This document shows positions 13,462-18,800 of a stretch of 26,482 bases of DNA, one piece after another. Numbering within the stretch: position 1 is the first letter of the stretch; the number at the start of each line of letters is the position of its first letter. A program made the translations under genes and the position numbers. A model generated the notes under the pieces. That model had not been told where the DNA came from. It worked only from the letters and a program-made list of their open reading frames with translations, and searched no databases. Origin of the DNA: a virus; the IMG/VR virus record IMGVR_UViG_3300025073_000155, positions 1 through 26,482 of that record; one strand, written 5' to 3'.

Positions 13462-14538
13462 ATGAGTCTCACAGGTCAGGGCGTGGGCGCGCCGATCGCG
13501 AGCGCGTCCGCGCCGAGCAACGGCACCAATGAGGTGCAGACGCTGACCATCGGCGGCACGCCCACCGGTGGTACGTTCAAGCTCGCGTTCGAGGGCTTCA
13601 TCACGTCGGCCATTACCTGGACGTCGGTGGACAACACCCTCGTCGCCAGCATCCAGACGGCGCTGCGGGCGCTTGCCAGCATTGGGAGCGACGGCATGAC
13701 CGTCGCGGCCGGCACACTCTCGTCGGGCATCGGCACTGTCACACTGACGTTCGGCGGCAATCGGGCCCGGGAGGCATTGGGCCTCATCACCGTGGACACC
13801 AACGCCCTGACTGGCACGGCGCCGACGCTGGCCGTGGCCGAGACCACGCCCGGCGTGACGGCGACGGCGCGCGGCGCGGTGGCCGGCGCCGTCCTGGTCA
13901 ACACGACCACGGGCGAGCGCTACCAGAACCTCGGCACGGCGGCGGCGCCCTCCTGGACGCTCTACACGGCCGGCGGTACCGGGGCCACCGGGGCTACCGG
14001 GGCCACCGGAAGCACAGGGACCACCGGCGACACCGGTCCTACCGGCGACACGGGCCCCACCGGAAGCACCGGCGACACGGGCCCCACCGGAAGTACTGGG
14101 ACCACCGGTGATACCGGAAGTACAGGGACCACCGGAAGTACCGGGGCTACCGGGGCCACCGGCGCCACCGGCCCGGGCCTCTATCTCTCCGAGATTGAAG
14201 ACCTGGGGGCCGGCGCCGACTTCACGGCGCGCGCAGAGTTCGTGGCGCCTGCGGGCGGATGCACGTTGACGGCGATCGGGATCGTGCCGCATGACGCCTC
14301 CGCCGGCATTGACGACTCCAACACGGCGGTGATCACGGTTGCCGATGCAACCGGCAACGTGATCGTCACCAAGACCTACAACACGGGCACGCAGCCGCCC
14401 TCGGCGAACGTCTACGGTTCCCTCGGCACGCTGGACGTAACCCACAAGGTGCTGACGGCGAACGAGGTGGTGACTGTCGCCATCACGCAGGGCGCGGCAG
14501 CGAACCTGCCCGCACTGCGGATGATCTTCGAGTGGTAG
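13462..14538 (+). CDS. Head fibre / decoration protein with a collagen-like Gly-X-Thr stalk
   Basis: A 358-residue protein. Residues about 20-130 contain the virion-protein repeat pattern '[19 protein letters not shown] ... [19 protein letters not shown] ... [10 protein letters not shown]', seen in phage surface proteins. Residues 172-237 are 22 consecutive G-X-T triplets ending in GPG, where X is Ala, Ser, Thr, Asp, Pro or Gly. This should form a collagen-like triple helix, so the protein is probably a trimer. The C-terminal 120 residues are a beta-rich knob ([20 protein letters not shown], ending ALRMIFEW). Location right after the capsid gene suggests attachment to the head surface, perhaps for binding host or surfaces. 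The all-Thr third position is notable next to a glycosyltransferase gene. Confidence 0.78.
13975..14169 (+). repeat. Nine-base coding repeats (Gly-X-Thr) in the fibre gene
   Basis: About 22 units of nine bases of the type GGG-GCC-ACC and GGA-AGT-ACC are arranged head to tail, several identical to each other (for example the unit encoding GDTGPTG occurs repeatedly). Such DNA can lose or gain units by slippage or recombination, changing stalk length in steps of three residues. Confidence 0.85.
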
Positions 14539-14552
14539 CGACTGTGGGGAGG

Positions 14553-14575
14553 GCGGCAGAGCTGCCGCTTTCCTT
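14553..14575 (+). terminator. Terminator-like hairpin after the fibre gene
   Basis: GCGGCA (14553-14558) pairs with TGCCGC (14563-14568) around GAGC, followed by TTTCCTT. It lies 15 bases after the fibre stop and before the convergent reverse-strand gene, fitting a terminator of the head transcript. Confidence 0.58.
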
Positions 14576-14600
14576 GCAGGCCAGCATTGAGGCCACTTCG

Positions 14601-14792
14601 TCAGGGCGCAGCAGCAGCCGATCTGTCGGGCGCCTCCTCTCGTAGCGCCTGCTGTGCCGCGCGCCGCTCTTCGGCGGCAAGCGCCTTGCGCAGCAGCCAG
14701 CCGGCGTGCATCGCCGCCGGCCTCCGGTTGCGTACTGCCGAGCGCACCAGGCGCTCGGCAGTCTCGGTGTCCAAATCGAGAATGATCCGCAT
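14601..14792 (-). CDS. Ribbon-helix-helix (Arc/CopG-like) DNA-binding protein, reverse strand
   Basis: A 63-residue product read against the surrounding late genes. The start is the ATG at 14792 because GAGGAGGG sits seven bases upstream; the ATG at 14819 lies inside the predicted -10 box. MRIILDLDTETAERLVRSAV gives the beta ribbon and first helix; RNRRPAAMHAGWLLRKALAA gives the second helix typical of Arc/CopG/antitoxin-type dimers. Such proteins repress promoters, often their own. It is alone, with no toxin partner beside it on the same strand. It is placed as a moron between the fibre and glycosyltransferase genes, with a promoter and a tandem repeat just upstream that could be its operator. 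Confidence 0.68.
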   Translation of the reverse strand: MRIILDLDTETAERLVRSAVRNRRPAAMHAGWLLRKALAAEERRAAQQALREEAPDRSAAAAP

Positions 14793-14814
14793 GGGGAAGC
14801 CCTCCTCGCTATGA

Positions 14815-17172: not shown

Positions 17173-17180
17173 CGCCATGG
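17155..17180 (+). repeat. Left copy of a 26-bp direct repeat
   Basis: The 26 bases from 17155 match 17648-17673 with one difference (T17169 versus C17662). Extending left gives 28 of 30. The repeat covers the codons for RCYLD, the stop and GACGCCATGG. It brackets the 150-residue gene between them. Confidence 0.9.
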
Positions 17181-17212
17181 TGGCAGCCGAAACGACCGAG
17201 GAGGAAAACGAG

Positions 17213-17665
17213 ATGAAGCAGACACTGCGGGAGGTGTTGGCCGAAGCCGAGGCGGAACGCGCCGCTGATGCCCTGGAGGCGAAGCAGGTCCTGGATGCTC
17301 AGGTGGCCGCCCTGCGCGCCTATGCGGCCCAGGTGCTGGGGCCGCTCTGGTTGGAGTTCGAGCCCTACGTCACCGGGGTGCGCGCGCACCCGGTGAAGCT
17401 TCGGGTTGAGCACCCGGAGCTGCTTGAGTTCTACGTGTACGGTGTATGCGGGGGTCTCTACGTCTCCTCGGTAAGCGAGGGCATGACCCTTGACGGCCCC
17501 CCGCCACTGCGCCCGGTGGAGAAGCGCATGCGGGAATTCGGCCAGTTCCTGCTCCGGCTGCACAAGCAGCGCCAGAATCAGGCGCTGACCGACAGTGCCA
17601 CCTGCAAAGAAGGGGTGGCCGTGCTTCCTGGCCGGGAACAAGGCCTCCGCTGCTATCTGGACTGA
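17213..17665 (+). CDS. Hypothetical protein, 150 aa, bounded by direct repeats
   Basis: ATG 17213 is chosen because AGGAGG (17199-17204) lies eight bases upstream; ATG 17177 in the left repeat would add 12 residues. The first 50 residues are a charged helix (REVLAEAEAERAADALEAKQ), then a beta-like middle (FEPYVTGVRAHPVKLRVEHP, ELLEFYVYGVCGGLYVSS). The family is not recognised. The last six residues, LRCYLD, are the same as the end of the head-closure protein because both lie in the repeat. This suggests the gene was inserted by recombination at the repeat and acquired this tail. It may have no structural role. Confidence 0.62.
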   Translation: MKQTLREVLAEAEAERAADALEAKQVLDAQVAALRAYAAQVLGPLWLEFEPYVTGVRAHPVKLRVEHPELLEFYVYGVCGGLYVSSVSEGMTLDGPPPLRPVEKRMREFGQFLLRLHKQRQNQALTDSATCKEGVAVLPGREQGLRCYLD

Positions 17666-17673
17666 CGCCATGG
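17648..17673 (+). repeat. Right copy of the 26-bp direct repeat
   Basis: Partner of 17155-17180, offset 493 bases, 25 of 26 identical. Its ATGG is the start of the FkbM gene, whereas the ATGG of the left copy opens the optional longer form of the 150-residue gene. Confidence 0.9.
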
Positions 17674-18800
17674 ACTGGCTGGACGCCCTGATCGCCGCGC
17701 CGACGCCGCCGGGGGCCGACGCACTCCTCGAGGCCGGCCGGCCGATCGTGATCTACGGCGCGGGCCGCGCCGGCACCCGCCTGCGCGCCACTCTCCTGGA
17801 GAGAGGGGCCCGGGTGCGCCACTTCCTCGACGCGGAGGCGAGCACCTGCGCTCCGCGCTGCGATCTCCCGGTCTACCTGCCGGCCGAAGATCCTCTGACT
17901 GCTGAGGAGCGGCGCGAAGCGGTCGGGGTCGTGGCGATCTACAATCCCACGGTCGACGTGCCGGCCCTGATGGTTGATCTGCACCAGCTCGGGTATGGGA
18001 CCGTGCTCAACTTCATTGCTGCGCACTCGGCGCTTGCCGACGCGCTCGGCGATTGGTACTCGCTCTCGGCGCGGCACACCTACGCCGACGCGTCCGGTGA
18101 GATCCGACGCGCGCATTCACTGATGGCCGATGCGACCAGTCGGCTGCTCTTCCGGCGCCTGCTGGAGTTCCGGCTGACCGGTGACTACCACCTGCTGCCG
18201 GCGCCGGACAGCGAGCACCAGTACTGCCCTCCCGACCTGCCGCGCTGGCAGAACCCGGTGCGCTTTGTCGATGGCGGCGCCTACCGTGGAGAGACGCTTG
18301 GCGCGCTGTTCGCCCACGGCTACCAGGTCGATGCTGTCGCTGCATTCGAGCCGGACCCAGCCAGTTTCGCGGTCCTGTCTGAGTTCGTGTTGCGCAGGGC
18401 CGAGCCGGGAGTTACGCACTATGCTCTCTGGCCGTGCGCGATCTACTCGTCGGCGCAGCGGCTGTCCTTCCGGGCCGGCCAGGAAGAGGCGAGCGCACTC
18501 GGCGATGGCGGCAGTTGTATGGTTCACGCGGTCACGCTCGATGTGGCGCTGAAATCATTCGACCCGACGCTGATCAAGCTGGACCTGGAGGGCGCCGAGT
18601 ACGAGGCGCTACTGGGAGCGCGATGCACGATCGCGGAGAGCCGGCCCGGCCTGGCCGTGTGCGTCTACCATCGGCCCGAGCACCTGTGGCAGGTGCCGCT
18701 GCTCATCGACGGGTGGGATTGCGGCTACCGCCTCCACCTGCGCCTTCACGCGCACAGCGGGTTCGAGGCGGTGCTGTACGCAGTGCCGTCAGCCACATAG
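17670..18800 (+). CDS. FkbM-family methyltransferase with N-terminal Rossmann-like domain
   Basis: A 376-residue protein starting at ATG 17670 inside the right repeat. Residues 24-40 (RPIVIYGAGRAGTRL) are a glycine-rich nucleotide-binding turn, followed by 'VRHFLDA', as in sugar-modifying or PglD-like Rossmann domains. From about residue 195 the FkbM methyltransferase core appears: VRFVDGGAYRGETL (SAM motif I), AAFEPDP (acidic second motif) and LIKLDLEGAEYEALLGA (the family signature near 302). FkbM enzymes methylate oxygen atoms of sugars or polyketides. Being inside a virion operon with a glycosyltransferase, a sugar on the phage particle is a plausible substrate. The N-terminal domain's role is unknown. 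Confidence 0.82.
   Translation: MDWLDALIAAPTPPGADALLEAGRPIVIYGAGRAGTRLRATLLERGARVRHFLDAEASTCAPRCDLPVYLPAEDPLTAEERREAVGVVAIYNPTVDVPALMVDLHQLGYGTVLNFIAAHSALADALGDWYSLSARHTYADASGEIRRAHSLMADATSRLLFRRLLEFRLTGDYHLLPAPDSEHQYCPPDLPRWQNPVRFVDGGAYRGETLGALFAHGYQVDAVAAFEPDPASFAVLSEFVLRRAEPGVTHYALWPCAIYSSAQRLSFRAGQEEASALGDGGSCMVHAVTLDVALKSFDPTLIKLDLEGAEYEALLGARCTIAESRPGLAVCVYHRPEHLWQVPLLIDGWDCGYRLHLRLHAHSGFEAVLYAVPSAT

Follow-up and report, generated by a model that had tools for sequence, protein, structure and literature searches.

A collagen-like fibre gene with 22 Gly-X-Thr triplets near a glycosyltransferase and an FkbM-type methyltransferase: a candidate for a glycosylated and methylated head fibre in a siphophage

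Genes at the locus

The window analysed here is the whole of IMG/VR virus record IMGVR_UViG_3300025073_000155, a stretch of 26,482 bases. Its virion gene block contains a candidate head-fibre gene with a collagen-like segment, a gene for a putative protein-modifying glycosyltransferase (GT), and a gene for an FkbM-type O-methyltransferase (Table 1). We examined the prediction, made earlier from the sequence alone, that fibre threonines receive a sugar from the GT and that this sugar is then O-methylated by FkbM. Its genes, among them those for an annealing protein, a helicase loader, terminase, portal, prohead protease, an HK97-type capsid, connectors and tape measure, mark the virus as a siphophage. 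The GT and FkbM genes both lie on the plus strand within the virion block and are separated by genes for head-tail connectors. Identical sequence (100%) occurs on two contigs of other metagenomes, which cover 2051-13898 and 17736-22691 of the window. An assembly error is thereby ruled out for the N-terminal domain of the fibre, for FkbM and for the surroundings of each; for the collagen stalk and the GT, the window contig is the only coverage.

Table 1. Features of the virion gene block in the window
Feature	Position	Strand	Basis
Major capsid protein, HK97 type; gene just before the fibre	12051..13379	+	PF05065 1.6e-39; phrog_10 8e-51
Collagen-like head-fibre candidate, 358 amino acids	13462..14538	+	PF01391 8.4e-12; directly after capsid gene
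Fibre N-terminal domain, virion type	13462..13971	+	Homologues adjoin capsid gene in relatives; Foldseek
22 consecutive Gly-X-Thr triplets, proposed glycosylation sites	13972..14169	+	Repeat count; 9-base periodic DNA repeat
Fibre C-terminal domain	14170..14538	+	Low-confidence model
Small open reading frame, 72 amino acids, between fibre and GT	14601..14819	-	Open reading frame
SgtA/SunS/GmaR-like GT2-TPR glycosyltransferase (putative), 326 amino acids from ATG	14953..15933	+	Family alignment, profile, fold, motifs
Head-tail adaptor, between GT and FkbM	16139..16834	+	phrog_442 2.5e-8
Open reading frame before FkbM, 162 amino acids, function unassigned	17177..17665	+	Bounded by 30-base direct repeat
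FkbM-type O-methyltransferase with N-terminal Rossmann-like segment, 376 amino acids	17670..18800	+	PF05050 9.4e-9; solved homologue 2py6 9e-12
HK97 gp10-like neck protein, after FkbM	18811..19239	+	PF04883 9e-6; phrog_5 1.4e-8

A collagen-like fibre beside the capsid gene

The 22 Gly-X-Thr triplets that the original prediction reported in the fibre are an exact count: residues 171-236 form an uninterrupted run in which threonine (Thr) occupies 22 of 22 Y positions. A chance origin of this run was ruled out, as the longest run in 5000 shuffled versions of the fibre protein was three triplets.

In 25 other viral loci whose capsid genes are related to that of the window, a homologue of the N-terminal domain (fibre residues 1-168) adjoins the capsid gene, at 46-67% identity for the 16 that were aligned; a search of GenBank phages with this domain gave no matches. 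Eighteen of the 25 relatives end within 6 residues of the point at which the stalk starts in the window fibre, and the remaining ones are truncated or otherwise extended. None of the 25, some of which lie on near-duplicate contigs, has a collagen stalk, and the C-terminal domain of the window fibre has no relative among the loci collected. In the window phage, a conserved protein linked to the capsid has thus gained a collagen stalk and a new C-terminal domain.

Foldseek matched the N-terminal domain to Bxb1 proteins of the tail tip and the capsid and to Patience virion proteins. The search was informative for this domain alone, the collagen and C-terminal parts having been modelled at low confidence. 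The capsid-gene neighbourhood and the Foldseek matches support a head fibre without proving one. A precedent exists in gp12 of SPP1, a collagen-like trimer that decorates the head of a siphophage, although glycosylation of gp12 is not mentioned in the review that describes it (PMC7602432).

A putative protein-modifying glycosyltransferase

The open reading frame (ORF) listed for the GT, 14854-15933, opens at GTG 14854. Translation more probably starts at ATG 14953, because the family alignment begins there and a GGGAGGG ribosome site lies upstream. A single-sequence Pfam scan of the protein returned weak tetratricopeptide repeat (TPR) matches alone. Among its relatives, 44 of 47 match Glycos_transf_2, and 38 of the 47 family members match the NCBIfam SunS model; the GT profile matched GmaR (5.6e-25) and SunS (2.4e-21). 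The predicted fold is a GT-A domain followed by TPR (predicted local distance difference test score, 94.7), with SunS and ThuS as the top structural matches. By profile and predicted fold, the GT falls within a family of protein modifiers like SunS and GmaR. These two names and that of ThuS were taken from database entries, and the acceptors described for such relatives are proteins or peptides.

The domain order (GT-A/GT2 then TPR) and the size also fit those of an SgtA-type enzyme of about 330-360 amino acids. The protein retains the motifs DAD, HE, FYLAQSYRD and RAEP and, in the alignment of 47, the DxD-type metal site, the invariant residues D42, R71 and H146, and the TPR signature. Neither the GT nor FkbM contains a strongly hydrophobic segment of the membrane type.

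Glycosyltransferases and threonine-rich collagen occur together

A single-sequence scan of viral contigs with the GT gave no matches, and an alignment was required. Built with the proteins of phage L064 and of Tunturi_5, it yielded 22 viral and 36 bacterial loci. The GT loci were gathered by GT similarity alone, and none but the window was picked for collagen. A collagen run, counted at no fewer than seven triplets and mostly Thr-rich, is present in 16 of 25 viral and 19 of 36 bacterial GT loci. When proteins were clustered at 60% identity and Thr-rich runs only were taken, a run lay within 10 kb of the GT in 9 of 14 viral clusters (the window included) and 13 of 21 bacterial clusters, and within 3 kb in 6 and 11 of them, respectively. 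The share of GT flanks with a run drops from 0.15 at 0-1.5 kb to 0.01 beyond 6 kb; in the window, 796 nucleotides separate the collagen run from the GT domain, with one minus-strand ORF between. As background, one of 65 other capsid relatives (802 kb) has a collagen run, and that one is Thr-poor. L064 was set aside from this background because it has a GT. In the reciprocal test, a GT was present in 12 of 120 phage loci with the (GXT)5 pattern versus 1 of 104 control loci with the GX(Q/K/E)5 pattern only (p=0.0035).

On the GT tree, collagen-bearing and collagen-less members intermix repeatedly, as do those of phages and bacteria, which indicates that the pairing has been gained, lost or exchanged many times. 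A link between this GT family and Thr-rich collagen is therefore well supported, at the level of sequence, as a general phenomenon in phages and bacteria. A literature search that left out most subscription journals found no paper on the pairing in phages. The cultured jumbo phage Tunturi_5 of Tunturiibacter (L073; PP885688) encodes a GT2-TPR protein, gp35, with 30% identity to the window GT; its gene is some 4 kb away from gp29, which encodes a 1470-amino-acid tail fibre with Gly-X-Thr segments.

Methyltransferases beside the glycosyltransferase

The FkbM ORF of the window opens at GTG 17595 (17595-18800), with ATG 17670 as the likely start. Its PF05050 match scores 36.1 bits against a Pfam gathering score of 22.7. 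A single-sequence scan with FkbM matched the same phage only. GenBank matches labelled as phage were not counted as phage evidence, since the record concerned (L074; MT835819) is a bacterial contig. Filed as "Bacteriophage sp.", it has genes like those for MutS2, Era, PhoH and transporters and has apparently been misfiled.

Elsewhere in the GT family, methyltransferases recur. Phage L064 shares 40% capsid protein identity with the window, and its gene order is capsid, methyltransferase (PF13649), WbqC (PF08889), two collagen genes and GT. This methyltransferase-WbqC-collagen-GT cassette is common to L064 (1089-5932), its close kin L094 (1-3600; GT 80% identical) and L096 (4700-10860). Phage L080 has a GT fused with Methyltransf_11, and collagen flanks this fusion. 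Two Methylobacterium genomes (L109:6700-13000 and L122:2-3935) have a collagen-like gene, with 222 Gly-X-Y triplets in L109, followed by a gene for a single polypeptide that joins GT2-TPR, a GT4-type domain and FkbM; this polypeptide is a natural fusion of the proposed pathway. In phage L381, the GT and FkbM genes overlap by 22 bases within a glycan cluster that lies between capsid and connector genes and is without collagen. By domain matches, then, a methyltransferase beside this GT family is recurrent, FkbM specifically occurring in the cellular fusions and L381. Together with collagen, the methyltransferases are of other types in L064, L080, L094 and L096, and FkbM in the cellular fusions.

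The L381 cluster (4709-12336) was also seen to contain nucleotidyltransferase-like, radical-SAM-like and, by eye, LicD-like genes and several GTs, besides GT2-TPR and FkbM. Two bacterial metagenome-assembled genomes (L120:930-4547 and L123:9971-13546) encode proteins that join GT2-TPR to GT10 (fucosyltransferase-like) and GT25 domains, possibly multi-step glycan makers.

Comparison with known systems

The original prediction took as its model BclA of Bacillus, a bacterial exosporium protein whose collagen-like G-P-T repeats carry O-glycans ending in an O-methylated sugar; the likeness to the window is one of description and not of enzymes. The peptide S-glycosyltransferases SunS and ThuS (PDB 7msn and 7msk) and GmaR (22ao) share with the window GT a GT-A fold with a C-terminal helical or TPR part, and their acceptors are likewise protein or peptide. 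They differ from the proposed window GT in that SunS and ThuS modify a bacteriocin cysteine and GmaR acts on flagellin, and their identity to the GT model in the fold search is about 9-13%.

A better analogue than Bacillus BclA is the BclA3/SgtA pair of Clostridioides difficile, in which glycosylation of collagen Thr has been characterised. According to the parts of PMC7157674 drawn on here, SgtA is a 358-residue, Mn-dependent enzyme (GT at 1-260, then TPR at 262-358) that moves N-acetylglucosamine (GlcNAc) from UDP-GlcNAc onto Thr of collagen-like BclA3 peptides, and its gene adjoins bclA3. As in the window, an enzyme with a GT-A domain followed by TPR is encoded beside a collagen-like gene; the neighbour of SgtA is rich in G-P-T, and the acceptor is collagen Thr. 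In contrast to the window, the pair belongs to a cellular spore coat and not a virion, those parts of the paper mention no methyltransferase, and the window GT lacks the DTGS motif. The likeness is one of published architecture, and with one family motif (DTGS) replaced, membership of the SgtA family is not claimed. By analogy, the window system would work like SgtA-BclA3 transplanted to a virion.

In mycobacteriophages, a phage-encoded GT modifies virion proteins (Freeman 2023 as cited in PMC13313380 and PMC12691614), and in Rhodococcus phages a GT with a methyltransferase has been taken as a sign of glycosylated virions (PMC13313380, PMC12691614). The parts of these papers drawn on here differ from the window in mentioning no collagen-like acceptor for the mycobacteriophages, and the likeness is by description and not by enzyme family.

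Proposed mechanism and alternative explanations

We propose that the phage would build trimeric head fibres, each with an N-terminal domain that docks on the capsid, a collagen-like stalk formed by the 22-triplet segment, and a C-terminal domain that caps the stalk. Before or during assembly, a soluble SgtA-like GT would grip the fibre chain via its TPR half and add a sugar from the host nucleotide-sugar pool to the stalk threonines. FkbM would then O-methylate the stalk glycan and so cap it. The fibre is the likeliest acceptor of the GT, and co-occurrence, cassettes, fold and the SgtA-BclA3 pair make its glycosylation likely, as originally predicted, with the altered donor motif discussed below counting on the other side. 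Methylation of the fibre glycan by FkbM is plausible from the GT-methyltransferase fusions, the cassettes and L381. As a whole, a collagen-like head fibre that is glycosylated by the GT and whose glycan is methylated by FkbM is our best explanation of the locus, and we give it somewhat more than an even chance. Any benefit to the phage might lie in adhesion, stability, or hiding from surface or antibody recognition.

Several observations weigh against this explanation. The 414-base gap separating fibre and GT is occupied by the minus-strand ORF, so the fibre and enzyme genes need not share one transcript. The original prediction placed a GT2 enzyme with a TPR-like domain directly downstream of the fibre and FkbM in the same operon; the identity of the enzyme holds by family and fold, both enzyme ORFs lie at the positions given for them, and FkbM is indeed present on the same strand as the GT, but the fibre and GT genes are not strictly adjacent and, with the minus-strand ORF between them, one operon would be an overstatement. 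No sugar-nucleotide gene was recognised among the scanned ORFs of the window, a record that is itself a fragment, and the donor is therefore presumed to come from the host. A match to FkbM over the cut-off occurs in 0 of the 24 other GT-bearing viral and phage records and in none of the other capsid relatives. Co-occurrence of Gly-X-Thr fibre, TPR-GT2 and FkbM in other phages had been put forward as a check: the fibre-GT pairing does recur, but among the phage records searched FkbM was seen together with collagen in the window phage alone. Related cassettes of GT, methyltransferase and collagen exist in L064, L094 and L096, as does the fusion beside collagen in L080. When the reciprocal loci are split by measured Thr content, the contrast is weaker (GT in 11 of 124 versus 2 of 84, p=0.08). 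Against the view that the GT follows every type of phage collagen, the control pattern showed that the GT goes with GXT; the association with measured Thr fraction is less clear.

The remaining points concern the GT itself. SVEPG replaces the DTGS donor-site (nucleotide-binding) motif that the other 46 of 47 keep, the protein sits on one of the four long end branches of the tree, and it groups, with uncertain placement, with a subclade in which 12 of 16 lack nearby collagen. The motif loss and tree position allow an altered donor choice, another virion target or lost activity. If activity were lost, the gene would be in decay or its product would serve to bind an acceptor through TPR, with FkbM unrelated, and both the unique absence of DTGS and the long branch would agree with this. 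The frame is intact, however, the DAD site, D42, R71, H146 and the TPR signature residues are kept, the GT-A fold is predicted with high confidence, and altered donor choice accounts for the loss of DTGS equally well, so we regard degeneracy as improbable. Modification of the capsid or a tail protein, as reported for mycobacteriophages (Freeman 2023 as cited in PMC13313380 and PMC12691614), would leave the Gly-X-Thr stalk purely structural. The mostly collagen-less subclade, the arrangement in L381, and the lack of a Thr-rich run within 5 kb for 9 of the 20 viral GTs placed on the tree (some on short contigs) are consistent with such a target; we nevertheless consider it unlikely, given the strong enrichment of the family beside Thr-rich collagen in phages and cells and the action of SgtA on collagen Thr described in the cited parts of PMC7157674. 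The GT and FkbM could also be passenger genes of the late region that alter host surface glycans and so mask a receptor or change the serotype. The usual proposal for phage GTs is an action on glycans or DNA of the host (PMC10202952, PMC7029224), the window FkbM is mainly of bacterial type (its GenBank "phage" match being the bacterial contig), and the duplicated boundary described below suggests insertion of a segment. Against this stand a soluble TPR family of protein-modifying GTs that is without a membrane anchor, the position of both genes inside the virion module, and the link of the GT to collagen, which together make a host target distinctly improbable.

Returning to fibre glycosylation, we tentatively suggest, at a little below an even chance, that the window is one instance of a widespread module repeatedly exchanged among phages and bacteria, in which collagen-like surface fibres rich in Thr are accompanied by an SgtA-like GT and, in many cases, by a methyltransferase. 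Phages would thereby make methyl-capped, glycosylated virion fibres, and the window GT would use a non-standard donor. Collagen-like proteins are common in phages, and a GT family that tracks their Thr-rich repeats offers a testable reason for these. If true, the single characterised SgtA-BclA3 pair would be widened to a broad family, one that predicts glycosylated and sometimes methylated virion fibres, those of the cultured phage Tunturi_5 included. Phage glycan coats affect antibody recognition (PMC12691614) and could also affect adhesion.

Neighbouring genes

Pfam gave no match to the minus-strand ORF between fibre and GT, and the collected loci contain no relative of it; by eye, its product has a ribbon-helix-helix-like appearance. 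Upstream of FkbM, a 30-base direct repeat (93%) occurs at 17151-17180 and 17644-17673, at the ends of two consecutive genes, which suggests insertion of a gene cassette or a duplication in the connector block. Both genes that end in the repeat finish in RCYLD and a stop, followed by CGCCATGG.

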